Shown here one piece after another: positions 38,450-52,035 of a stretch of 64,000 nucleotides of DNA; position 1 is the stretch's first letter, and every line of letters begins with the position of its first letter. The notes beneath the pieces are model-generated. The model did no database searches. It had not been told where the DNA came from and was given only the letters and a program-made list of their open reading frames with translations. Location: NCBI GenBank assembly GCA_011391635.1, contig JAABQD010000001.1:1-64000 (forward strand). The letters run 5' to 3'. Source of the DNA: Sulfurimonas sp. Its GTDB lineage: Bacteria; Campylobacterota; Campylobacteria; Campylobacterales; Sulfurimonadaceae. Position numbers and translations under genes: made by a program.

Positions 38450-39865
38450 TTAACAAATCACAACACTCTTGATTTCACTCATCTCTTCGATGGCAAAGCG
38501 TGGACCTTCTCGACCTATACCGCTGAGTTTCAGACCGCCATAAGGCTGAATATCAAAACGCAGAGTTGGCATGTCGTTGATGACTATGCCACCTGCATCT
38601 AGCTCTGAAATTGCTTTTTTTGTAAGTGCTAAATCATTTGTAAAAACTGAAAATTGTAAGCCATAAGGGGAGTTATTCATCCGTGGAAGTGCATCTTCAA
38701 AACTCTCTACTTTTACTAAAGAAACTATGGGTGCAAATACCTCTTCGCATACGATTGCCATATCATCTGTGACATTTGCCATCACGCAAGGATGAAACAT
38801 TCTGCCCTCGCGGTGAGGCTCTAAAAGTGCGACTGCCCCCTCATGTATGGCAGATTCAACCCAGCCCATTGCGCGAATCGCCGCTGCATCGTCAATAAGT
38901 GGTCCCATAAAAGTAGTATCATCATAAGGAGAACCTACAACCAGTTTTTTTGTCTCTTCTGCCATGAGAGAAGCAAAAGTATCATAAATATCTTGATGCA
39001 CATAGATGCGTTGCAGGGAAATACAAACCTGCCCGGAGTTTACAAATGCACCCAAAGCACAACGAGCAGCGGCATGTGGAAGGTCTGCACTCTTGTCTAT
39101 AAAAGTCGCTGCATTACCGCCAAGCTCTAAACTTACCTTTTTTATCCCTGCACTTTTGGCGATAATCGCCCCCACGGGAACACTTCCCGTAAAACTTATC
39201 ACACGGGGAATGTCGCTTGTAACCAAAGCACTTCCAACCTCCGCATCACCATACACTACACTTAGAGCATTTGGCACGGCATGTGGACTTTCAACGAAGA
39301 GTTTTGCAAATTTATACGCAGTAAGTGGAGCTTCTGGAGTTGGCTTGAGAACAACCGCATTTCCAGCCACAAGTGCGGGTGCTAATTTATGGGCGATAAG
39401 ATTGAGCGGAAAGTTAAAAGGTGTAATCGCAACCACAACTCCAGCAGGCTCACGGGTAAAATAAGCGATAGTTTTTTTACCGCTGTTCATGGCATCTGTG
39501 TTGATAGTTTCGCCATGCATGGTTCGCATCGTCTCAGCAGATAAAGTCACAGTCTCTATACATCTATCAACTTCGATTCTTGAATATGTAATGGGTTTGC
39601 CCACTTCATCGGTAATCGTTTTTGCGATATCCTCTTTATTCTCTTGTAACTTTTGTGCCACATCTAAAAGCCAATTGCATCTTTGTGCAAGCGTTGATTT
39701 CTTAGTTGCACATGCCGCTTCTTTGGCAATGAGCAAAGCTTTTTTTGCATCTTCAGCATCACAAATTGGGGCAAAAGAGACAACTTCTCCACTATAAGGG
39801 CTTTTTCTTTGACTTAAATTTTCTTTTGTCGCTTCTGTTGAGCCAAAAAATATTTTTGCTTGCAT
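38450..39865 (-). CDS. NAD(P)-dependent aldehyde dehydrogenase
   Basis: 471 aa from ATG at 39865 (MQAKIFFGSTEA), which has AAGGAAA upstream; the track start runs back into the cyclase gene. Catalytic Cys in NSGQVCISLQR, Glu in SLELGGNAA, and cofactor region FTGSVPVG. The family oxidises aldehydes to acids; similarity in PFNFPLNLIAHKLAPAL is to the succinate-semialdehyde/lactaldehyde group. It follows the signalling operon by 13 bases, perhaps a read-through passenger. CCACATGCC copies at 39071 and 39278 encode LPHAA and SPHAV. Confidence 0.92.
   Translation of the reverse strand: MQAKIFFGSTEATKENLSQRKSPYSGEVVSFAPICDAEDAKKALLIAKEAACATKKSTLAQRCNWLLDVAQKLQENKEDIAKTITDEVGKPITYSRIEVDRCIETVTLSAETMRTMHGETINTDAMNSGKKTIAYFTREPAGVVVAITPFNFPLNLIAHKLAPALVAGNAVVLKPTPEAPLTAYKFAKLFVESPHAVPNALSVVYGDAEVGSALVTSDIPRVISFTGSVPVGAIIAKSAGIKKVSLELGGNAATFIDKSADLPHAAARCALGAFVNSGQVCISLQRIYVHQDIYDTFASLMAEETKKLVVGSPYDDTTFMGPLIDDAAAIRAMGWVESAIHEGAVALLEPHREGRMFHPCVMANVTDDMAIVCEEVFAPIVSLVKVESFEDALPRMNNSPYGLQFSVFTNDLALTKKAISELDAGGIVINDMPTLRFDIQPYGGLKLSGIGREGPRFAIEEMSEIKSVVIC
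39071..39286. repeat. Two CCACATGCC copies inside the aldehyde dehydrogenase gene
   Basis: Cores at 39071-39079 and 39278-39286, same orientation; both use the codon frame that spells PHA. Confidence 0.85.
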
Positions 39866-39878
39866 TGTAAGATTTCCT

Positions 39879-42017
39879 TTATTTCGTTTTAAACTCGAAA
39901 ACACCATCGAATTCTATTATATTTTCTTCCAAAAGGTGTGTGCATCTCTCTGAATAAAGTTCATACAGAGGCTTTTTATAGGTTTCATAAAGCGTATCAA
40001 ATATCTCTTTGGATTTTTTAAATTCTGCATTTAAGTAAAAATTATGTGCTTTATAATAGACTTCAAGTTCTATTTGCTTTTGCTCATCTGCTTCGCCTAA
40101 AGATAACACTTCATAAATTTCTACGGGTTCAGCTTTACCTTTTACACGCACTTTATCTAAGAGTTGCATCACATAAGAGTCTTTTAATTTTGCTTTTGTA
40201 AATTCCGAAATTATAAGTCTTACTTTATAGGGTTTACACAAACCCTCAAGACGTGATGCAAGATTTACAGCATCGCCAATGATAGTGTAATCAGAACGCC
40301 CCAAAGAACCTATTTCTCCAACAATGACACTTCCAGTATTTATACCAATCCCATAATCCACATCAAAACCAAAATCTTTTTTTATTTTTTTATTTAAAAA
40401 GTCTCTCTGTGCTATCTGTTCAAGTGCCGTTTTTACTGCTTCATCCGCATGATTTGCAACTGCCAAAGGTGCATTCCAGTACGCCATAATTGCATCGCCT
40501 ATAAACTTATCAATCGTCCCTTGATGCTTCTCAACAGAAACAACCATAGCGTTCATATAAAAGTTTAAAAAATCTGTCACTCTTTTTGGCGAGTGAAGCT
40601 CTTCTGAGATAGTGGTAAAACCTCGTATGTCAGAGAAATAGATACTTACCTCCACCTCTTTAGAAGTAAAATTTGTCGCATCAGGGTTGGCTAGTAAATC
40701 ATCCATAACCTGCTTCGATACTTTTTTTGAGAAGCTATTTTTTACCATCATTTTTTGGCGATATTCAAAGATATAATTGACACCTAACATCCCAATAAGC
40801 GACAAAATCATAGAAAAAAGTGGGAAAACAGTGTTGATAATAATATATTCATGAAAAAGTAAATAGGAGTTAAAATATAAAAGAGACGCAAATGAAAAAG
40901 GATAAACAACGACAAGCAATAACATGGATAATCGTGAATAGAGCATCACAACCACAAAAACAATACAGAGTATCATCAAAATATCTATGAGTTCAATAGT
41001 GGATGGCTTTTGTAACATATCTTGATTGATAAGATTATCAATCACATTGGCATGAATTTCCACTCCAGCTATAACACTCTCCATCGGAGTTGAACGAAGG
41101 TCCATAAGTCCGTATGCCGAAGTACCTACAAGAGCAATTTTACCCTCAATAGATGCTTTATCAAATTTGTTATTGAAAATATCTACTGCTGAAATATATT
41201 CGTAACTTTTAGCCGACCCTCGAAAGTTGATATGAACTCTTCCAAATCTGTCTGTAGGAATAGTTACAGAACCTAGCTGTACGCTCTCTACCCCTGATTC
41301 ACCATACGAAATAACGACCTTTTGAGCATCACTCATAATACGGTAGAGTTCAAAAGCCAAAGAGGGATAAAGCATCTCATCATACTTAATCATGAGCGGA
41401 ACACTTCTGATAATCCCAGCTTCATCGGGAATATTATTCATAAAACCACTTGAATATCCTGATTTTTGAATACTTTCAAGATTTGTTAACACTCCCTTGG
41501 CATGTGGAAAAAATTCTATCTCTTGTTTGTTTTTTTCGACAAATATTACTGGAACTGTAGGAGCATCTTTGGTATTATTCTTATCAAAATCAAAAACATA
41601 GCCCAAAATAGCAGGGGTTGAGGCTATGGTCTCTGAGAGTATCGCATCATAATCTGGCAAACCCTCTCTTTGTATATTCCACTCTTTGGCAAATTTTTGA
41701 GGAGAGGTTTTATCCGCCTCACTAAAAACAATATCAAGCCCGATAATGCCAACACCACTCTCTTGTAAATTGGTCAAAATCTTTGCAAATTTATCTCTCT
41801 CCCACGGCCACTGACCAAGCTCTTTGATACTTTTTTCATCGATATCTATGATTACAATCGTATCGCTTACTTTCTCAGTGCCTCGGAAATTGAAGTATAA
41901 ATCTCGTACACGATTATCGATCGATTCAAAGTAACTTGGTAAAAAGAGATAAGAAGTTGTGAGGAGCAATGAGATAAATACAAAGAGAAGGAAGAGAACT
42001 TTGTATTTATCTTTCAT
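39879..42017 (-). CDS. CHASE2-domain adenylate cyclase
   Basis: 712 aa. One membrane helix (about 7-26), periplasmic CHASE2 sensor (about 30-335), three helices (about 345-415), then a class III cyclase domain (about 455-640). Catalytic residues are complete: metal Asp463 (FSDIRGFT) and Asp508 (FIGDAIMAYWN), Lys504 and Asp576 at the base-specifying positions, Asn585 and Arg589 in VNLASRLEG. The Lys/Asp pair predicts ATP and so cAMP as product. It starts 2 bases after fecR. A CCACATGCC copy (41499) encodes FPHAKG in the sensor. Confidence 0.93.
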   Translation of the reverse strand: MKDKYKVLFLLFVFISLLLTTSYLFLPSYFESIDNRVRDLYFNFRGTEKVSDTIVIIDIDEKSIKELGQWPWERDKFAKILTNLQESGVGIIGLDIVFSEADKTSPQKFAKEWNIQREGLPDYDAILSETIASTPAILGYVFDFDKNNTKDAPTVPVIFVEKNKQEIEFFPHAKGVLTNLESIQKSGYSSGFMNNIPDEAGIIRSVPLMIKYDEMLYPSLAFELYRIMSDAQKVVISYGESGVESVQLGSVTIPTDRFGRVHINFRGSAKSYEYISAVDIFNNKFDKASIEGKIALVGTSAYGLMDLRSTPMESVIAGVEIHANVIDNLINQDMLQKPSTIELIDILMILCIVFVVVMLYSRLSMLLLVVVYPFSFASLLYFNSYLLFHEYIIINTVFPLFSMILSLIGMLGVNYIFEYRQKMMVKNSFSKKVSKQVMDDLLANPDATNFTSKEVEVSIYFSDIRGFTTISEELHSPKRVTDFLNFYMNAMVVSVEKHQGTIDKFIGDAIMAYWNAPLAVANHADEAVKTALEQIAQRDFLNKKIKKDFGFDVDYGIGINTGSVIVGEIGSLGRSDYTIIGDAVNLASRLEGLCKPYKVRLIISEFTKAKLKDSYVMQLLDKVRVKGKAEPVEIYEVLSLGEADEQKQIELEVYYKAHNFYLNAEFKKSKEIFDTLYETYKKPLYELYSERCTHLLEENIIEFDGVFEFKTK

Positions 42018-42019
42018 GG

Positions 42020-43108
42020 CTAGATTCCATAGCTGCCATATGGAGATTGATTTGGGCTAGTAGGGTTACTTGGAGTGGTTGGAGTTGCTGCGGCAGCAGC
42101 AGCGGCTGCAGCTGCAGCTTCTGCGGCAATTCTCGCGGCTTCTGCAGCTGCGGCTTCTGCGGCAATTCTCGCGGCTTCTGCGGCTGCGGCTTCTGCGGCA
42201 ATTCTCGCGGCTTCTGCGGCTGCGGCTTCTGCGGCAATTCTCGCGGCTTCTGCAGCTGCGGCTTCTGCGGAAATTCTCGCGGCTTCTGCAGTAATTCTCG
42301 CGGCTTCTATTTCTTCAATTTTATTCACAATATTCACCTGCGTAGCATCTGTCGTGTGCTTTGTTATATCTTTTACATCTAAATCAAATTTTTCAACTCT
42401 CGTTGTATCTATTTGAGTTTTAGCATCAGTTGTAGTAAGTAATTCGGTTGATTCCTTAACTTGTTTTGATTCCTTCTCTTTTTGATTTTCTATGCTACTA
42501 AAATTATCATCTTTCATTTTACCAAGCTCTGCAGGAGTAAACTTCATAGGTTCACTTCGTTTTCCATCTGGAGAAACTACAACATAAAAACCTTGTGTCA
42601 CAGTCGAGAGTTCACCTCTGATACTTACACTAATCGCTCCAAAAGTACAATAAACTCTACTACTTCCATCTAGCTCGGCAATAATTGTAAAGTTTGTTCC
42701 ACGAATACCAATCGTTGCTGTTTTAGTTTGGACACTAAATTTATCGGGTGCTATTTTGCCTATTTTACCAGTTATTGTTCGCATCGCACCATTTACAAGT
42801 CCAAATTTTGCAGTAGGTTCTTTGCTCTCTTCGTAAAGGTATTCATTGATAGAAAAATTACTATTTTTACCAATTGTTATCGTCGTGTCATCATCAAATA
42901 CGACTTGTACTTTAGTTGCATCTTTGGTCGTAATACTATCTTTTTCATTCAGTTTTGCACCAAGCGTTGCTTCTATCTCTTGAGTATCACGGAGTATGGA
43001 TGCACTTCCTTGTAAAGCAGTAATAGCACCAACGCTCTTCGCAAATGCAACCGAACTTAGCAACAACAAAGTTATAATAATTGTATTAAATATTTTCATA
43101 ATAGACAT
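42020..43108 (-). CDS. FecR-domain protein with Ala-rich repeat tail
   Basis: 362 aa. Signal peptide (about 1-23), FecR domain (about 30-150; KLNEKDSITTKDATKVQVVF, IGIRGTNFTI), a polar linker, then a long helix-forming tail of 12-residue repeats (ARIAAEAAAAEA) and a Pro/Thr/Ser-rich end. Periplasmic FecR proteins of this type commonly accompany CHASE2 sensors. The tail may span the periplasm as a rigid helix. The gene lies 1 base after the TPR/barrel gene and 2 before the cyclase. Confidence 0.88.
   Translation of the reverse strand: MSIMKIFNTIIITLLLLSSVAFAKSVGAITALQGSASILRDTQEIEATLGAKLNEKDSITTKDATKVQVVFDDDTTITIGKNSNFSINEYLYEESKEPTAKFGLVNGAMRTITGKIGKIAPDKFSVQTKTATIGIRGTNFTIIAELDGSSRVYCTFGAISVSIRGELSTVTQGFYVVVSPDGKRSEPMKFTPAELGKMKDDNFSSIENQKEKESKQVKESTELLTTTDAKTQIDTTRVEKFDLDVKDITKHTTDATQVNIVNKIEEIEAARITAEAARISAEAAAAEAARIAAEAAAAEAARIAAEAAAAEAARIAAEAAAAEAARIAAEAAAAAAAAAAATPTTPSNPTSPNQSPYGSYGI
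42122..42305. repeat. 36-bp tandem repeat in the FecR gene
   Basis: The unit anchor AATTCTCGCGGCTTCTG recurs at 42128, 42164, 42200, 42236 and 42272 (period 36), then at 42293 (a 21-base step). The units are nearly identical, so copy number probably varies between strains. The many ORFs on both strands here are repeat shadows. Confidence 0.9.
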
Positions 43109-43109
43109 C

Positions 43110-44411
43110 CTAAAAAGATTGTACTACACCGGCAGAAACCGTGTATTTTTCATAACTAAAAACATTTTGATTCGAATCAACTCTGTCATAATTTGTTTTG
43201 AGTTTAATACGCAAGGTTTCCATGACTTTTGCACTCACACTCGCTCCAATACTTTTACTTGTATCCTCTCTTGTTGCATCAAAGAGTGTACTGTAATCAT
43301 CATATTTTCTTTGTCTGATTTGAGCATAAAGTTCACCGCCATAAGTAGGTGTAAACTGATTCGCATAGATTGCATCTAACTTATACTCTTTATAATCCAC
43401 ATCAATTCTTGTACCATGCTCTTTTTTCTCTTGAATACCAGTTGCATTGACTTGAACATACGAACGAGGAGAGAGAATATTTTGTAGTCCATAAGATAGT
43501 TCATAGTGCTTTGCATCTAAATCAGATTGAGCTGATTGTTGAAACTTCTTTGTTTGATATTTAAGATAAGCACTACTTCGCAAAGTGTTTGTATGTTCAT
43601 ACTCAACTCTTGGCATTAAAGAGAGAGTTTGTAGATAGTTTTTATTTGCTAAAGTCATAGTATCTGCACCAAGTGCCAGTTCAGCTGTATATTTTGTATA
43701 TTTATAAAGAAGGCTTGGCATATACACAAAATATTTTGTATCGTATGCACTCTCTTTTTGATAAGTGTTCAAATATGCTGTTGCTCTATTTTTTATGGCA
43801 AAACCATTTGCGTCACCGATATCATAAATATTCACTATATCTGCTAGAACTTGAAGTGCACTATCTGATTTTTTTTCTGGTGTTGCGTATTGTGTATTTG
43901 CAATAGTATAACTATCATCCATCGGACCTGAATTAATATTTGAATCATAAAGCATATCTAAAGCAACAGTCAAATAGGTAAAAGATTTTTCTTGAACCTT
44001 AGTTACCTTTGAGAGATACAACTCAATATTTTTTCGTACATTCTCAGGAATCATCGGATTTGCCAAAACCTCTTTAAAGGAGAGTTCTGCATCTTCATAC
44101 ATCTTGAGCATAAAATAAGTTCTTGCTTTTTCTAGCTTATTTCTAAGATTTGTAGAATCAAGCATCTCAACTCTCTCAAAAGCTGCAAGAGCATTCTCAT
44201 AATGCCCTGTTTCATAGGCAGATACACCGAGACTAAAGTTCAAATTTGCATCTGAAAGCTTCGTCATATAAAGCTTAGAAAAGAGTTCATAAGCCTTTTG
44301 ATACTCTTTTGCTTTATACGCATCAACCGCTTGTGCATGTGTGGCTTCTATATCCATCGCCAAAATATGCAAAGGCAATAACAATATTATAAGAACAAAA
44401 ACTTTTTTCAT
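43110..44411 (-). CDS. TPR protein with C-terminal outer-membrane barrel
   Basis: 433 aa. Signal peptide (about 1-18), TPR-like helices (about 20-135; AYKAKEYQKAYELFSKLY, YETGHYENALAAFERVE), then about 290 residues of beta strands (LRIKLKTNYDRVD) ending in SAGVVQSF, a terminal-Phe barrel signature. The layout recalls outer-membrane proteins that export or modify surface proteins. Next to FecR and CHASE2 genes it is probably the outer-membrane end of this trans-envelope signalling unit. Confidence 0.78.
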   Translation of the reverse strand: MKKVFVLIILLLPLHILAMDIEATHAQAVDAYKAKEYQKAYELFSKLYMTKLSDANLNFSLGVSAYETGHYENALAAFERVEMLDSTNLRNKLEKARTYFMLKMYEDAELSFKEVLANPMIPENVRKNIELYLSKVTKVQEKSFTYLTVALDMLYDSNINSGPMDDSYTIANTQYATPEKKSDSALQVLADIVNIYDIGDANGFAIKNRATAYLNTYQKESAYDTKYFVYMPSLLYKYTKYTAELALGADTMTLANKNYLQTLSLMPRVEYEHTNTLRSSAYLKYQTKKFQQSAQSDLDAKHYELSYGLQNILSPRSYVQVNATGIQEKKEHGTRIDVDYKEYKLDAIYANQFTPTYGGELYAQIRQRKYDDYSTLFDATREDTSKSIGASVSAKVMETLRIKLKTNYDRVDSNQNVFSYEKYTVSAGVVQSF

Positions 44412-44429
44412 TGAAACACTCTCCTCTAT

Positions 44430-46148
44430 TTAGATATCTATTTGTTCAGGCTTAAAACACTGCTTAGCAAATCGCAAATGTATATTCTGATCATAAAAAA
44501 ACTGAACTAAATCAGCATCCAACTCCCCATCTTTCACCATAAAATTGATAATTTTTATGATTTCACTCATCGTTTTTGCCCCTTTATAAGGTCGATCTGA
44601 AGCTGAAAGTGCTTCAAATATATCAGCTAGTGCTAAAATTCTAGACTCTAATGACAATTCATCTGCTTTTAAACCTTTTGGATATCCTTTGCCATTGAGT
44701 TTTTCATGATGCCCTCCAGCGATACTTGGTACGCGTTTTAAATGTTTAGGAAAAGGGAGTGCATCAAGCATTTCATTGCTCACTCTTGCATGATCTCGCA
44801 TAATTACAAGTTCTTCTTCTGTAAGAGTTCCTTTTCTTATGCATAAATTATTCACTTCAAAATCACTCAATAAATTTTGCTCCACTCCACTCATTTTCAC
44901 TCTTCTTTGTGCAATCTTTTTGACTCGTTGAATATGTTCATCTGTCATAAATTCCACACCCACATTGGAGATGATTAAAAAAACTAGCTCATCTTCGAGT
45001 ACATCTATCTCTTCATTTAATTTATCTTCAAGCAGTTGAATCTCACTCAAAGAAGCCCCTGATCCGATAAGTTGAATCTTTTTGTTGAGCATTTCAATAG
45101 TTAATTCTTGTTTATACACTATAAACTTAACTCTTATCACATCAATCATATCGTAAATTGTTTCGAGCTTTGTTGCTTTGTCCATAACATGCGATGGTGT
45201 AGTAATCTTCCCAACATCATGCATAAGTGCTGAAATTCTAATCTCATCTATCTCTTGTTTTGTATAATGCACATCTGCATATTTACCTGTTGTCGCTTTG
45301 TTTAACGCTTTTGCTATTTTTAAAGATATACTTGCAACTTTATTGACATGCCCACCAGTGTGAGGTGATTTTTGGTCAACTGCAAAAGCGATACTTTTGA
45401 TAAATGACTCTAAAAGTTCTTTTAAATCTTTAATCATTTTTGCATTTGTGATAGCAACCGCAGCTTGAGATGCCAAAGAGAGTAGTAATCTTTCATCTTC
45501 ATTGGTAAAACTTATTACATTATTCTCGCAATCGCGAGCATTTAAAAGTTGTACAACTCCAATAACCTCTTTACGAGAATTTATCATTGGAATAACTAAC
45601 ATAGATTTTGAGCGAAAACCGGTACTTTCATCAAACTTTCTTGTTCCACTAAAATTAAAACCTTCCGCGTCATAAACATCTTGAAAATTTAATACTTTTG
45701 CGGTTAATGCACAATGTGCTGCAACCATTTCGTGATTTTGGGAGCCATCTTCAAGATAGAGAGGTACTGCTGGCCATGGAATTTCTTCACCATGAACACC
45801 CATATGGATTCCAAGTGAATCTGTTTCTACAATTTTAAAAACAAGCAACTCCTCATTTTCACTCATAATATAAAGTGTTCCACCATCTGAATTTGTAAAA
45901 AGTTTACTTTTTGAGATGATTTCTCCTAAGAGATGCTCAAGATTTGTTTCTATAGAGAGAAGCATACCTATGTCATTGAGATGATCAATCTGATCTGTTT
46001 TTTTCTCACAAAATGTTTTAATAGTTTCCACTATTAGATTTTCTGCTGTCTGCTTATTTTCATTAGGCTCTTTTGAGAGGTTATGAAGCTTATTTGCCAC
46101 ATGGGAAAGAAATCTATTTATCTCTTTATTTTTTGAATGAATCTGCAT
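44430..46148 (-). CDS. GAF and HD-GYP domain protein (predicted c-di-GMP phosphodiesterase)
   Basis: 572 aa. GAF domain (about 60-235) then HD-GYP (about 250-550). His310-Asp311 in LMHDVGK and HHEKLNGKGYP (480-490) give the metal site and the GYP loop, so c-di-GMP hydrolysis is predicted. About 110 residues, partly coiled coil (SLSEIQLLEDKLNEEIDVLE), separate the HD from the HHE motif, more than usual. GAF domains can bind cyclic nucleotides, and an adenylate cyclase and a cAMP-type phosphodiesterase are in the same operon; the link between the two messengers is inference. Confidence 0.88.
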   Translation of the reverse strand: MQIHSKNKEINRFLSHVANKLHNLSKEPNENKQTAENLIVETIKTFCEKKTDQIDHLNDIGMLLSIETNLEHLLGEIISKSKLFTNSDGGTLYIMSENEELLVFKIVETDSLGIHMGVHGEEIPWPAVPLYLEDGSQNHEMVAAHCALTAKVLNFQDVYDAEGFNFSGTRKFDESTGFRSKSMLVIPMINSRKEVIGVVQLLNARDCENNVISFTNEDERLLLSLASQAAVAITNAKMIKDLKELLESFIKSIAFAVDQKSPHTGGHVNKVASISLKIAKALNKATTGKYADVHYTKQEIDEIRISALMHDVGKITTPSHVMDKATKLETIYDMIDVIRVKFIVYKQELTIEMLNKKIQLIGSGASLSEIQLLEDKLNEEIDVLEDELVFLIISNVGVEFMTDEHIQRVKKIAQRRVKMSGVEQNLLSDFEVNNLCIRKGTLTEEELVIMRDHARVSNEMLDALPFPKHLKRVPSIAGGHHEKLNGKGYPKGLKADELSLESRILALADIFEALSASDRPYKGAKTMSEIIKIINFMVKDGELDADLVQFFYDQNIHLRFAKQCFKPEQIDI

Positions 46149-46151
46149 AAT

Positions 46152-46910
46152 CTATCCTATCTCAACTTCAACATTATCATCTAAAATAATCACTCTCTCA
46201 TATAAACCTATCGTTTTAAGTTCATCTATTATAGCATCTATGTACTCATACTTAATATGGTTAATGTATATTTGAATATCATCTCTTTGGAGTGCTTTTA
46301 ACTCATCTTGTAATAATATTGGCGTCAAATGCTTACTCAAAACAGCCAAACGATTAAAAGCAGAGGGAAAAGAAACTTCAATAACTAACTGTTTTAAACT
46401 CTTGTTTTTATTTAAAAAATCCCATGTGTGGTAACAAAGGAATGTATCCGAGGTAAATACCATAGCATTATTAATCACAAACCCACAGCTCCCAAAAGTA
46501 TGAAAATTTGGATAAGGTTGCAATCTGAAGTTGCCTATAGTATATTCTTGAAAATACTCCAAACTATGAAAAATTATTGCATTTGCACTCTTATTCATAA
46601 GTGGTATCTTTGAGAAATCTGGCCAGATTTTATTATTAAAGATATTCTCTTTTAAAATATCAATCACCTCTTGTGTCGCAAAAACATGGAGCGGTTTTTC
46701 CATTCTTGAGTAAAAAGTATCAATCGCAGTCGGCAAATCCACAATATGATCAAAGTGAGCATGCGTCAACACTACATTCTCTAACTTTAAAAAATCATTC
46801 CCCAGACTCTGAATTAAATTTCCAGCATCAATGACACTTTTTTCATCCAGCAAATAGGAACTGAGTTGAGAATTTTGAGTTTTAGAACCAAATGCACCTA
46901 AGATTTTCAT
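46152..46910 (-). CDS. Class II cyclic-nucleotide phosphodiesterase-like metallohydrolase
   Basis: 252 aa metallo-beta-lactamase fold with HxHxDH in LTHAHFDHI (His50, His52, Asp54, His55), later metal ligands in SDTFLCYH and INHIKYEY. Length, the early GAFGSKTQNSQLSSYLL and the lack of RNase Z features fit class II 3',5'-cyclic nucleotide phosphodiesterases (CpdP type). It is the first gene of the operon holding an adenylate cyclase 4 kb downstream, so degradation of cAMP is a reasonable role. RNase Z-like or other hydrolases remain possible. Confidence 0.72.
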   Translation of the reverse strand: MKILGAFGSKTQNSQLSSYLLDEKSVIDAGNLIQSLGNDFLKLENVVLTHAHFDHIVDLPTAIDTFYSRMEKPLHVFATQEVIDILKENIFNNKIWPDFSKIPLMNKSANAIIFHSLEYFQEYTIGNFRLQPYPNFHTFGSCGFVINNAMVFTSDTFLCYHTWDFLNKNKSLKQLVIEVSFPSAFNRLAVLSKHLTPILLQDELKALQRDDIQIYINHIKYEYIDAIIDELKTIGLYERVIILDDNVEVEIG

Positions 46911-46978
46911 TTATAACTCCAATAAATCATACCTCAATAGTAACATTATTTTTAAAAAAATAAAATAATAATACCTAA

Positions 46979-47285
46979 AGAGTTATATTTTCCACATGCC
47001 AAATTTTTTCAGATGTAATGATAATTGCGTCAAAAGTGAAATCACAATCAATAGAGTTTTTATTCATGTAAATTTGTGCGGTTTTGATAATTTTTGAGAG
47101 TTTCGAGCGGGTGATGTTTTGGATAGCACTCTCATAATCTTCGCCACTCTTTACCTCGACAAAGTGAAGAACTTCCTCTTTTACAGCGATGATGTCTATC
47201 TCTCCAAAACGGCTGTAAAAATTTCTCTCTATAACTATAAAACCTTTGTCATAAAGAAATCCACATGCCAACTCTTCGGCTAGAT
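46979..47285 (-). pseudogene. Truncated duplicate of yraN (5' end missing)
   Basis: 307 bp match the intact yraN at 49639-49945. The last 205 bp (47081-47285) are identical to 49741-49945, and the first 100 bp carry about 14 differences. The first 11 codons of yraN are absent, because the match stops at GGCTAGAT and unrelated sequence follows. The track ORF starts at a TTG inside the remnant and is unlikely to be expressed as a working protein. It lies between the phosphodiesterase gene and the GH3 gene. CCACATGCC copies sit at 46992 and 47261. Confidence 0.85.
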
Positions 47286-47332
47286 GCTATGCATTTAAAA
47301 TTAAATCCCATCATTCATAATTTATTTTAATG

Positions 47333-47338
47333 TATAAT
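47333..47338 (+). promoter_or_regulatory. -10 box of the GH3 gene
   Basis: TATAAT 28 bases before the ATG, with AGAAGGA as the ribosome site, so the inserted gene brings its own promoter. Confidence 0.6.
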
Positions 47339-47365
47339 ATGTGAAATTTAGAAGGATTTTACTAT

Positions 47366-49597
47366 ATGAAAATAATTATAATTTTAGTCTTAATATGTTT
47401 AAGCCTATTCTCTTTAAGCTCTGATGAAAGTTTAACCAAAGAAGAAAAACAACAAATTGATAGTTATATTGACACCTCACCATTGGAGAATTTAATAGGA
47501 CAAGTTTTTATGATAGGTATAAAAACAGATTTTAAAAATTATCAAAACTCAGATGAAATCAAAAGTCTTTTAAAAGAAAATTCATTTGGTTCTGTTATGT
47601 TGAATTCATATAATTATTATGATCCTAGTAGTGATGATGATTACATGCATATAGATAATATAATCAGTTTTAATAATTTTCTTCAAGATAATGCACAAAG
47701 AAGTCCAGTTGCTCTGCCATTATTATTAGCTGTTGATTTTGAAACACCAAAATTTTCATCTATTAAAAAAGGATTAGAACTCCCTATTCCGCCGTTAACT
47801 TTATCTTGCTCCCAAGATTCAAAAATACTTAAAACATCTGGACTATTAAATGGATTACAGCTTTCTAAAATTGGTATTAACCTTTTGCTTGGTCCAACCC
47901 TTGATATTAGTAATGTAAATCAATCAGCATCAAAATCTTTGTTATTAAATAGACCTTTTGCTGGAAATAAACAAGGAGTTATAAATTCATCTAGCAACTT
48001 TATCTCAGGTTTGCTAGAAAGTAAAATAGCATTTTTTATTAAACATTTGCCTGGACATGGCTCTGTTGAGTCTAATCCACACGATAAAGAAATTCCTTGT
48101 TATACGGGTGGTCCTACAGAGTTTGAAAATGACATGCGACCATTTACTGAATTTTTGAAATATTCCGATGGAATGATGACATCACATATCGTGTTACCTG
48201 CAATTAATGGACTAGAAAAGGAATTTGTTACTTTTTCAAAAATATTTATAGATAAATATGTAAAGAAAATTGAAAATAATCAAGACAAAATTCTTATTAC
48301 TGACGATTTAAGTTCTATGGGAGCTATTACTAAATATATGGAAATTAATAATATGTCCTTGTCAAAAGTTGCTATAAAAGCTTTTGATGCGGGTCACGAT
48401 ATTTTATTGTTTTCACATACAGATGAGTCAAATGGGAAAAACCCGAATCTAAATACTTATGAAGATATTATTAAGATAAAAAAAGATTTATATGAACATA
48501 TAAAAGCGAACAATAATGAAATTAGGCTAAAACACTCCATAAAAAAAGTACTCTATTTAAAAGCTCATATACATAAGAGTAAAGGTGGGTCTATTAGTGA
48601 ACTATTTACAAAAACAGAGAGAAAAACATCTTTCTGGAGAGTTAGTGATAATTCTGAACAAATATTTCGTTCAATAAATGATACACTCAGTAAAGTTATG
48701 GAGATTAAAGACAGTTCTACATTTTCTTATGAAGCTATAAAAAAAGCATCTACCCTAATTCATAGTATAGACAATATTAAAAAATTTAACAGCATAACTC
48801 CTAATGAAACTATTGCAACTTACTGCGATGATGAGTTTACTGAAAAGTTTAAAGGGTTTTTAGAAGGAAAAACAAGCAAAATTAATTTTATAAAAAAAGA
48901 AACATTTGGTAAAACAAAAGAGCAACTTATACAGCAAATTCAAGACTCTGATTTGACTATATTTTTCGTAGTAGATGAGGATGACAGAAATCTTTTGGAT
49001 TATATAAGAATTAAAGATACTAAGAGTCTTCGATTAAATGAGAAAATTATAGTTTTTGTACTTGCCGCACCAACAATATTACAAAATGAAAGTCTTAATC
49101 ATTTTCAAATCATATCTCTATCGACAAACCATCCTAAATCATTAAAAGTAATTCAAGAGCTTTTAACTGATGACATTCATCCAATAGATATTAAAAATTT
49201 TCCAATAAAAATTGGTAGTAATGGTGGATATCACTCTCTTGATAATGTTACTTGGGTAAAAAAAGCAGATTTTATTAGTAATAAAGACGACAATATAAGT
49301 AGTAGCTTAAACAAAGATGAAAGCTCTAGCTTCAATTATTCCAATATCATGTCATTTGCCTACATTGTTTTTCAAACTCTGCTACTCTCTGCTTATTTTT
49401 ATCATTTTAAAGAAAAAGAAGGTACTAAAAAGTTTTTTAATTTTCGTAGTAATAATATAGTTTTAGCCGTTATAATACCCAATGTTTTAGCAATTATATT
49501 CATATATTTTTTTAATAAAGAAATTCATGATAATCAAACAACAACATATGTTTTAGATAGTTCAAAAAAATATATAAACAAAAAGATAGATGAATAA
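47366..49597 (+). CDS. GH3 glycosidase-like protein with C-terminal membrane helices
   Basis: 743 aa. Signal peptide (about 1-18), GH3 barrel (about 35-400) with KHLPGHGSVESNPHD, MMTSHIVLPAI and the nucleophile motif ITDDLSSMGAI, as in NagZ-like beta-N-acetylglucosaminidases. The Asp of the NagZ DSH dyad is not conserved (SNPH). After a region of about 270 residues of no known fold come two membrane helices (about 660-680 and 695-715). A periplasmic, membrane-anchored enzyme acting on peptidoglycan or glycans is likely. Markedly AT-rich, on the plus strand among minus genes, and bracketed by yraN copies: a recent arrival. Confidence 0.82.
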   Translation: MKIIIILVLICLSLFSLSSDESLTKEEKQQIDSYIDTSPLENLIGQVFMIGIKTDFKNYQNSDEIKSLLKENSFGSVMLNSYNYYDPSSDDDYMHIDNIISFNNFLQDNAQRSPVALPLLLAVDFETPKFSSIKKGLELPIPPLTLSCSQDSKILKTSGLLNGLQLSKIGINLLLGPTLDISNVNQSASKSLLLNRPFAGNKQGVINSSSNFISGLLESKIAFFIKHLPGHGSVESNPHDKEIPCYTGGPTEFENDMRPFTEFLKYSDGMMTSHIVLPAINGLEKEFVTFSKIFIDKYVKKIENNQDKILITDDLSSMGAITKYMEINNMSLSKVAIKAFDAGHDILLFSHTDESNGKNPNLNTYEDIIKIKKDLYEHIKANNNEIRLKHSIKKVLYLKAHIHKSKGGSISELFTKTERKTSFWRVSDNSEQIFRSINDTLSKVMEIKDSSTFSYEAIKKASTLIHSIDNIKKFNSITPNETIATYCDDEFTEKFKGFLEGKTSKINFIKKETFGKTKEQLIQQIQDSDLTIFFVVDEDDRNLLDYIRIKDTKSLRLNEKIIVFVLAAPTILQNESLNHFQIISLSTNHPKSLKVIQELLTDDIHPIDIKNFPIKIGSNGGYHSLDNVTWVKKADFISNKDDNISSSLNKDESSSFNYSNIMSFAYIVFQTLLLSAYFYHFKEKEGTKKFFNFRSNNIVLAVIIPNVLAIIFIYFFNKEIHDNQTTTYVLDSSKKYINKKIDE

Positions 49598-49634
49598 AAT
49601 GTTGAGTATCAAGCGACACATAAAATAGATAACT

Positions 49635-49964
49635 TCAGAGAGTTATATTTTCCACATGCCAGATTTTTTGAGGTGTAACGATAATTGCATCAAAAGTAAA
49701 ATCACAATCCAAAGAATTTTTGCTCATATAGATTTGTGCAGTTTTGATAATTTTTGAGAGTTTCGAGCGGGTGATGTTTTGGATAGCACTCTCATAATCT
49801 TCGCCACTCTTTACCTCGACAAAGTGAAGAACTTCCTCTTTTACAGCGATGATGTCTATCTCTCCAAAACGGCTGTAAAAATTTCTCTCTATAACTATAA
49901 AACCTTTGTCATAAAGAAATCCACATGCCAACTCTTCGGCTAGATTTCCCTTGGCTCTGCTCAT
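49635..49964 (-). CDS. yraN: UPF0102 protein YraN, intact copy
   Basis: 109 aa, PD-(D/E)xK-like family. The nuclease-like motif is visible: RFGEIDIIAVKEEVLHFVEVK (Asp, then ExK). The biochemical role is unsettled; it has been suggested to process DNA. It starts 1 base after the formate dehydrogenase stop. A truncated copy lies 2.7 kb to the left. CCACATGCC copies near both ends (49652 and 49921) encode IWHVEN and LACGFL. Confidence 0.9.
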   Translation of the reverse strand: MSRAKGNLAEELACGFLYDKGFIVIERNFYSRFGEIDIIAVKEEVLHFVEVKSGEDYESAIQNITRSKLSKIIKTAQIYMSKNSLDCDFTFDAIIVTPQKIWHVENITL

Positions 49965-49965
49965 G

Positions 49966-52035
49966 TTAGATATTTATCACTTCAACTTTTATGGACTTAA
50001 ATGCAGCTGTTAAAATCAGCTCATCACACTTATCGCCAAAGAGATTATTTATCTTTGACTTCGCATGATGGAAGGTACAAAAGAGCGTTTGTGGCTGGAC
50101 TTTGTCTGTAAATTTTACCGTGAGTGGATTCGTCTCTCCAAACTCAGTTTTGAGGATAACTTTTTCGCTCACAAAATCCGCCGCATCGCCCTCATACACG
50201 AGTAAAATATCCTCATCATAACGGCTATTTAACTTCTCGCTCTCTTTGGTTTGTGCCGCGTTGTTGTAGTGTGCCAAAGTTCTACCGGTTGTGAGATGGT
50301 AACCTGTGAGAGTTTTAGCGATTATCTCTTGCACCATGCCACGGAGTTTATATTGGTGGTAATGAAACTCACCCAAGCCATCTTCAGTTCTAAAATCGAG
50401 TTGATGCAAAATCGGTGTATCTTCGGTATGCACTGGCCATTGAAGCCCTCGTATGCGATGTCGCTCAAGACGAACATAACTCGCACCGCTGAAACGGCGG
50501 TATGCTACCTCTCGAACCTCATCCCAAATTTCGTTTGAGTTTTTATACTCTGCTGTTCCGCCCATTTTATTATCAAGCATCTGCAAAACTTCCCAATCAT
50601 CAGGCAAGTCGGATTGCACAAGCGGTTGTGAGAGGTGAAGGCGACGCATTGCGTTTATATAAACACCCGTTTTTTCATACGCTGATTTTACACCAACCAC
50701 AATATCCGCTTTTTGTGCAACATCTGTCATAAAAAGCTCTTGCACAAAAATGAGCTCCAAATTCTCTATGGCTCTCTCGATTTTGTTAAGATTTGGGTGG
50801 ATGTGCGTTATATCTTCGCCGATGTTTAGGAGTGCTTTGACACGCCCCTCTAACATCTCTTCAACAAGCTGAGGCGTCATCAAACCGACCTCTTTTGGCT
50901 CCTGATAATCAGGTGCGTAGTAGGGAAGCATTCCCATGTCACAAGTTCCCTGCACATTGTTTTGTCCACGAAGTGGCATAAGTCCAGCTCCACTTTTTCC
51001 TATATTGCCCGTCATAAGTGCCAAATGTGTGATTGCCATAACTGCATAGGAACCATCAAGATGCTCAGTAATACCAAGTCCCCAAAAAATCATAGACTTT
51101 TTGAGTGCGTATTCACGGGCAATTTTTGGAATCATTTTTGATAAGCTTTGATACCCTTCGATATTTTCAAAATACTTTGGATTCGCATAGGGGTCGTTTA
51201 AAATCTTCTCTTTAAATGCATCAAACCCTTTGGTTCTCTCTCGTAAGAAATTTTCATGGTACAACTCTTCATCTATGATGACATATGCGAGCATATTTAA
51301 GACCAATAAATTTGCTTCATGGGGCATAATCGCCTTATATTTTGCAAAACGGTGGAGTTTAATTTCACGCACATCAAAAACCGCCAAATTATCATGCTCA
51401 CGAGCAACATCCAAAATACGGTTTGCAATAATAGGGTGTGCTTCAGTTGTGTTTGAGCCAATCACAATCATAAATTCGCAGTTGTAAATATCGTTGTAAG
51501 GATTCGTTGCCGCACCCTCGCCGATGGTGGTTCGCATCCCTTTGAGGCTTGGGGAGTGACAAACTCTCGCACAATTATCGACATGGGGAGAGTTCAGGGT
51601 GTGACGGGTAAATTTTTGAAAAAGGTAAGAGCTCTCGCATGAGGTTCTTGCCCCACCGATAGAGCAGACGCTTTTGCGACCATACTTCTCTTGAACCTCT
51701 TTAAGTTTCATAGCCGCCGCAGTTGTTACGGAGTCGAGGTCTGTTTCAAACCAGATGTCGTCATAATTTTTAAGAGAGTGGGCTATCGCATCTTTTATCG
51801 AAGGATTTTTTTCTAAAAAGCTTTTTTTGATTCGGGGAATTCGAAGGCGATTTGGCGATGTAACAAAATCAAAGCCGTATTTGCCTTTGATACAAAGCTT
51901 TCCTTGCGAGACTACGCCATCTTGGTGTGCAAAAATATTCACAATTTTATTTTCTTCTACATTGACATTTGCGGCAATGTCACATCCAACGCCACAATAT
52001 GTACAAACGCTATCGATAACCTTCAAATTTTCCAT
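49966..52035 (-). CDS. Formate dehydrogenase-like molybdopterin oxidoreductase, Cys form
   Basis: 689 aa. An N-terminal 4Fe-4S motif (CTYCGVGCDI, then GKLCIKG) and Mo-bis-MGD domains. The Mo ligand is Cys in NCARVCHSPSLKG, where E. coli FdhF has selenocysteine; no UGA is used here. MGD-binding segments LRGQNNVQGTCDMG and MTGNIGKSG are present. It oxidises formate (or reduces CO2) with an unknown partner; no electron-transfer subunit, membrane subunit or FdhD is adjacent. It lacks a Tat signal, so it is cytoplasmic. Followed 1 base later by yraN. Confidence 0.9.
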   Translation of the reverse strand: MENLKVIDSVCTYCGVGCDIAANVNVEENKIVNIFAHQDGVVSQGKLCIKGKYGFDFVTSPNRLRIPRIKKSFLEKNPSIKDAIAHSLKNYDDIWFETDLDSVTTAAAMKLKEVQEKYGRKSVCSIGGARTSCESSYLFQKFTRHTLNSPHVDNCARVCHSPSLKGMRTTIGEGAATNPYNDIYNCEFMIVIGSNTTEAHPIIANRILDVAREHDNLAVFDVREIKLHRFAKYKAIMPHEANLLVLNMLAYVIIDEELYHENFLRERTKGFDAFKEKILNDPYANPKYFENIEGYQSLSKMIPKIAREYALKKSMIFWGLGITEHLDGSYAVMAITHLALMTGNIGKSGAGLMPLRGQNNVQGTCDMGMLPYYAPDYQEPKEVGLMTPQLVEEMLEGRVKALLNIGEDITHIHPNLNKIERAIENLELIFVQELFMTDVAQKADIVVGVKSAYEKTGVYINAMRRLHLSQPLVQSDLPDDWEVLQMLDNKMGGTAEYKNSNEIWDEVREVAYRRFSGASYVRLERHRIRGLQWPVHTEDTPILHQLDFRTEDGLGEFHYHQYKLRGMVQEIIAKTLTGYHLTTGRTLAHYNNAAQTKESEKLNSRYDEDILLVYEGDAADFVSEKVILKTEFGETNPLTVKFTDKVQPQTLFCTFHHAKSKINNLFGDKCDELILTAAFKSIKVEVINI

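Follow-up and report, generated by a model that had tools for sequence, protein, structure and literature searches.

How a GH3 gene came to lie between two copies of yraN is the question raised by this locus, which is part of the window, the stretch of 64,000 nucleotides of Sulfurimonas DNA analysed here. Duplications that flank inserted genes have previously been taken as signs of some unknown means of mobility. In the present case, recombination with foreign DNA of homologous sequence is indicated by a mosaic pattern between the two copies and by there being only one unnatural junction, a reading that can be tested wherever both copies can be compared with relatives.

The duplicated yraN gene

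The two yraN copies align without gaps over 307 bp (46979-47285 and 49639-49945) and flank an AT-rich GH3 gene that is convergent to them (Table 1). They are the sole yraN copies of the source genome, a draft of 2.35 Mb in 84 contigs. The alignment bears out the truncated and the intact copy that the first-pass annotation had placed here. It had also described the duplicated part as lacking the first 11 codons of yraN, but only the first 19 nt are missing; the larger figure arose because the ORF finder starts at a TTG and so loses those codons. The left copy has no ATG start, and a stop just upstream of the junction closes its reading frame. It is probably a pseudogene.

Table 1. Features of the yraN-GH3 locus and its neighbourhood (positions within the window)
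Feature	Position	Strand	Description
ALDH (aldehyde dehydrogenase)	38450..39907	-	usual downstream neighbour of yraN in Sulfurimonas; named from sequence resemblance
CHASE2-cyclase / FecR / TPR-SlipAM / GAF-HD / MBL phosphodiesterase module	39879..46910	-	in the yraN-ALDH slot; common to the window and G141
5'-truncated yraN copy	46979..47285	-	equivalent to CDS nt 20-326; own stop TAG at 46975-46977
Diverged 3' block, left copy	46979..47080	-	holds all 14 mismatches to the right copy
Identical block	47081..47285	-	205 bp, same as 49741-49945; near 47081, boundary left by a recombination crossover or by conversion
Sole unnatural junction	47285..47286		yraN broken at CDS nt 20, followed by AT-rich GH3 upstream sequence
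Acquired GH3 gene	47366..49597	+	743 aa; signal-like N-terminus; NagZ-like GH3 domain at about 41-365; hydrophobic segment near 693-720
Intact yraN	49635..49964	-	109 aa, UPF0102/YraN family; stop TGA, same in four close relatives
FDH (formate dehydrogenase-like molybdopterin oxidoreductase)	49966..52035	-	conserved upstream neighbour of yraN; named from sequence resemblance

The GH3 gene

As annotated at first pass, the copies enclose a single AT-rich gene on the opposite strand, a convergent ORF of 743 aa with a GH3 domain (PF00933, 3.6e-29). Its GC content is 27%, compared with 36% for the window. The protein carries a motif of the KHxPGH type (KHLPGH at residue 226) and an Asp in DDL at 313, as NagZ-like beta-N-acetylglucosaminidases of family GH3 do, and its best match among solved structures is 6k5j. 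Against the NagZ equivalog of NCBIfam (PRK05337), it scores 73 bits, below the cut-off of 207 bits. For the C-terminal half (residues 400-743; window 48563-49594), neither Pfam nor NCBIfam gave a family match. No full-length relative was found in 397 genomes from the phylum, the best matches covering only the NagZ-like domain at about 25-32% identity, and neither a broader scan of genome contigs nor one of viral contigs returned a relative. Judged by its sequence, the GH3 gene is a foreign-looking, AT-rich orphan that was presumably acquired.

The variable slot between yraN and ALDH

The usual gene order in Sulfurimonas is FDH-yraN-(variable)-ALDH-alaS. Of 44 loci, 17 have a gap of 3-77 bp between yraN and ALDH, and 27 have one of 315-7238 bp. 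In G141 (L085:8708-9793), a gene for a 361-aa ATPase (ATPase_2) takes the place of the truncated yraN and GH3 and, like GH3, runs opposite to yraN. The slot of G092 (L056:8728-12906) is filled by a type IIG-like restriction-modification (R-M) gene together with a specificity-like gene and a member of the RhuM family. With the cargo varying between none, an ATPase and R-M genes, and with the module from the cyclase to MBL being shared, the yraN-ALDH interval is a variable slot; GH3 is therefore one of several cargos and did not enter an empty locus.

The first-pass annotation had expected relatives without the GH3 gene to show one yraN and a clean junction. A single yraN was found in nearly all of them: in all 80 named loci and in 90 of the 91 other genomes of the genus with a match. 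The remaining genome, G019, shows two matches, placed at the ends of separate contigs. G118 and G156 have clean yraN-ALDH junctions free of cargo.

The nearest relatives of the window are metagenome-assembled genomes, the closest in the sampled stretches being G141, with 82-94% in the main matches. The FDH gene of G141 (L085:6275-8344) stands out against every close relative by its divergence (about 79%) and looks like a replacement. A switch in relatedness across yraN, from G141-like on the left to G156-like on the right, had been considered as an import boundary and was dropped, since the FDH gene of G141 is itself the outlier.

Mosaic structure and junctions

The left and right copies differ at 14 positions, all of them within the 102 bp at the 3' end (13.7%), and the other 205 bp are identical. 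The probability of such clustering by chance is about 1e-7. This rules out a duplication with even drift afterwards. In the 102-bp block, there are 14 differences between left and right, 16 between left and G141, 12 between right and G118, and 13 between right and G156; measured against the four nearest species, either copy shows 12-16. The divergence between the copies is thus at the between-species level. In the 205-bp block, 27-33 of 205 positions separate the window from the four nearest species.

At the mismatch sites, both copies have changes of their own. By mean DNA distance, the left block is somewhat farther from the relatives than the right block, which could reflect the decay of an older copy. 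A tree of the 102-bp block does not resolve (AU p 0.29 for a grouping of left and right). Either one of the two 102-bp blocks is foreign, or an old duplicate has been partly homogenised by gene conversion.

An insertion with long target duplication should leave two sharp, unnatural insert borders, and only the one at 47285 was found. The DNA upstream of GH3 that begins there had no match in four close relatives, in a search run without a positive control. At the 3' end, both yraN copies terminate naturally, with different stops (TAG for the left copy, TGA for the right one), and the TGA of the right copy recurs in G141, G118, G092 and G156. No breakpoint lies at the left edge of the repeat, because weak homology between the copies runs on to 46960/49620 and each has its own stop; the relatives match the right copy beyond this edge. 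The insert holds no ORF of at least 80 aa apart from GH3 and yraN, and a search for terminal inverted repeats within it returned only AT-rich chance matches. With neither a transposase gene nor such repeats in the insert, the earlier statement that no transposase is needed stands.

Origin of the duplication

The account held here, with slightly better than even confidence, is a recent recombination with DNA of another Sulfurimonas, in which one end would have recombined by homology within yraN and the other would have been joined illegitimately. The event would be recent because 205 bp are without any change. The donor DNA would have come from another Sulfurimonas species in which GH3 adjoined the 3' end of its own yraN; no donor with GH3 beside yraN was found. 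It would have paired by homology with a resident yraN and crossed over near 47081/49741, giving a right copy with a donor 3' end and a resident 5' end continuous with FDH. The other donor end, upstream of GH3, would have been joined without homology to a resident yraN at CDS nt 20, probably on a sister chromosome or via a joined intermediate, and the resident copy left on the side of MBL would be truncated. As this joint would lie beyond the crossover, part of yraN would be duplicated. The model can yield a duplication only if two recipient copies, or else an intermediate, took part.

The identity switch inside yraN near 47081 is the pattern expected of a crossover at a homologous anchor, and the break inside yraN at 47285|47286 is a candidate for the illegitimate joint. 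On this model, we infer that the foreign 102-bp block is that of the right copy. One-sided events of this kind, termed homology-facilitated illegitimate recombination, are documented in transformable bacteria (PMC5361080), as are transformation-made duplications that bridge sister chromatids (PMC3784515). Uptake by natural transformation, possibly aided by the uptake-like word CCACATGCC in yraN, is plausible. The genome encodes a ComEC-like protein as well as several that resemble type IV pilins.

The first-pass proposal of an insertion with long target duplication holds in part: the foreign gene, the partial duplication of yraN and the relatives with a single yraN are as it described or expected, but the 102-bp block has diverged to the species level, and the repeat is broken at its 47285 edge only. 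In its strict form, the proposal is unsupported because it predicts two recipient-derived copies and a break at each inner end of the repeat. It would have to assume that the 3' ends diverged after the duplication, with gene conversion keeping the 5' 205 bp identical. The structure does resemble the Helicobacter cases (PMC3874152, PMC1643837), and the left block is farther from the relatives, as a decaying copy would be. However, 14% divergence would make the duplication about as old as the split from the relatives, which are without it; the right, functional block also has changes of its own, and no break is seen at the inner 3' edge. This course of events is accordingly considered unlikely.

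Somewhat less probable again is a donor that already carried yraN'-GH3-yraN and from which a crossover inside yraN' imported the whole arrangement, so that only the left 3' block would be resident and everything rightward would come from the donor. The mosaic would then require legitimate crossovers only, at least at this step, but the duplication is merely shifted to an unseen donor, and no such arrangement occurs among the 135 genomes of the genus. The closeness of FDH to G156 and G118 is unusable as support, because the FDH of G141 is an outlier. The roles may also be exchanged, with GH3 as the resident cargo and the MBL-side DNA, including the 3' end of the left yraN, as the incoming part. 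Being symmetric to the main model, this fits the mosaic equally well, and the right block is slightly closer to other relatives. Yet the module from CHASE2 to MBL is common to G141 at background identity and so looks inherited, and it is GH3 that is the AT-rich orphan; an exchange of roles is therefore given only a small chance. Least credible is a chimera, assembled from two strains of one metagenome. An exact repeat of 205 bp in a genome left in 84 draft contigs, with metagenome-assembled nearest relatives, could raise this suspicion. The contig, however, is 290 kb long, and the joint between yraN' and GH3 is a novel junction within a gene, which would not arise simply from homologous strains being collapsed.

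A putative DNA uptake sequence

The word CCACATGCC occurs 1,393 times in the genome (697 and 696 copies on the two strands), as opposed to three times (2 and 1) for the reversed control, and 38 times in the window, where 0.15 copies are expected. Examples in the window lie at 259, 7622, 11556, 46992 and 60556. An exact word so strongly overrepresented on either strand is a hallmark of DNA uptake sequences, and on this ground CCACATGCC looks like one; in the limited literature collection searched, no paper describes it, as judged by title and abstract. On contig C1, to which the following counts apply, the word is preceded by T and usually followed by A, one-mismatch variants are few, and many copies form close inverted pairs. 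There, 27% of the copies are not wholly inside predicted ORFs, which cover 92% of the DNA. Known uptake sequences have the same appearance.

Among Sulfurimonas genomes, only some have the word in abundance (up to 1,427 copies), and the extended 11-mer TCCACATGCCA has at most seven copies in each of 248 other genomes sampled from the order. At orthologous places, G141 retains the word in 12 of 13 cases. G156, G118 and G092 (L084, L055, L056) are mostly without it there, some places holding near variants such as CTACATGCC or CCGCATGCC.

Each yraN copy carries the word near both ends, as first annotated (46992 and 47261; 49652 and 49921). From this, it had been suggested that word-bearing incoming DNA paired at the site. 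The sites may indeed have helped uptake, but a role in pairing is unsupported. Both yraN sites also occur in relatives without the insertion. Their presence in several such relatives makes them ancestral, so they do not mark the event.

A wider hypothesis is tentatively put forward, as one that may well prove wrong: TCCACATGCCA may be an undescribed, putative uptake sequence of a Sulfurimonas clade, the word-bearing 3' end of yraN may serve as a transformation anchor beside the cargo slot, and recombination inside yraN may bring in foreign genes by exchange, at times with a duplicated remnant left behind, as at this locus. Should the word prove functional, the setting of a variable slot amid a word-packed genome would link gene acquisition in Campylobacterota to natural transformation.

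Comparison with known systems

Insertion with long target duplication is known for R-M genes of Helicobacter pylori (Nobusato et al. 2000, as reported in PMC3874152 and PMC1643837). To the extent that these reports describe it, the likeness lies in a foreign gene that sits, without a transposase, between directly repeated stretches of resident DNA about 100 bp long or longer. In contrast, the cargo here is a glycosidase and not an R-M gene, and the copies are a mosaic, one block having diverged to the species level, with only one unnatural junction.

The word shares with the uptake sequences of Neisseriaceae and Pasteurellaceae (PMC7811141, PMC3630211) its shortness, its hundreds to thousands of copies and its presence on both strands. 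Here, it moreover shows enrichment in the DNA outside ORFs and a tendency to form close inverted pairs. It is, however, another word, in Sulfurimonas of the Campylobacterota, and the resemblance is one of sequence.

Homology-facilitated illegitimate recombination has been invoked for the T6SS cargo arrays of Vibrio (PMC5361080). One homologous anchor, one illegitimate joint and a remnant of the resident gene beside the new gene would be common to both cases. The present case, reconstructed from one draft genome, differs in that the joint would lie beyond the crossover, so that DNA is duplicated. Such duplication is a feature of transformation-generated merodiploids (PMC3784515). These are about 100-900 kb in size and repeat-mediated, whereas the yraN duplication spans about 0.3 kb and has one joint without visible homology; in merodiploids, incoming DNA that bridges two chromatids produces a tandem duplication with a hybrid repeat sequence, as it would have done here.
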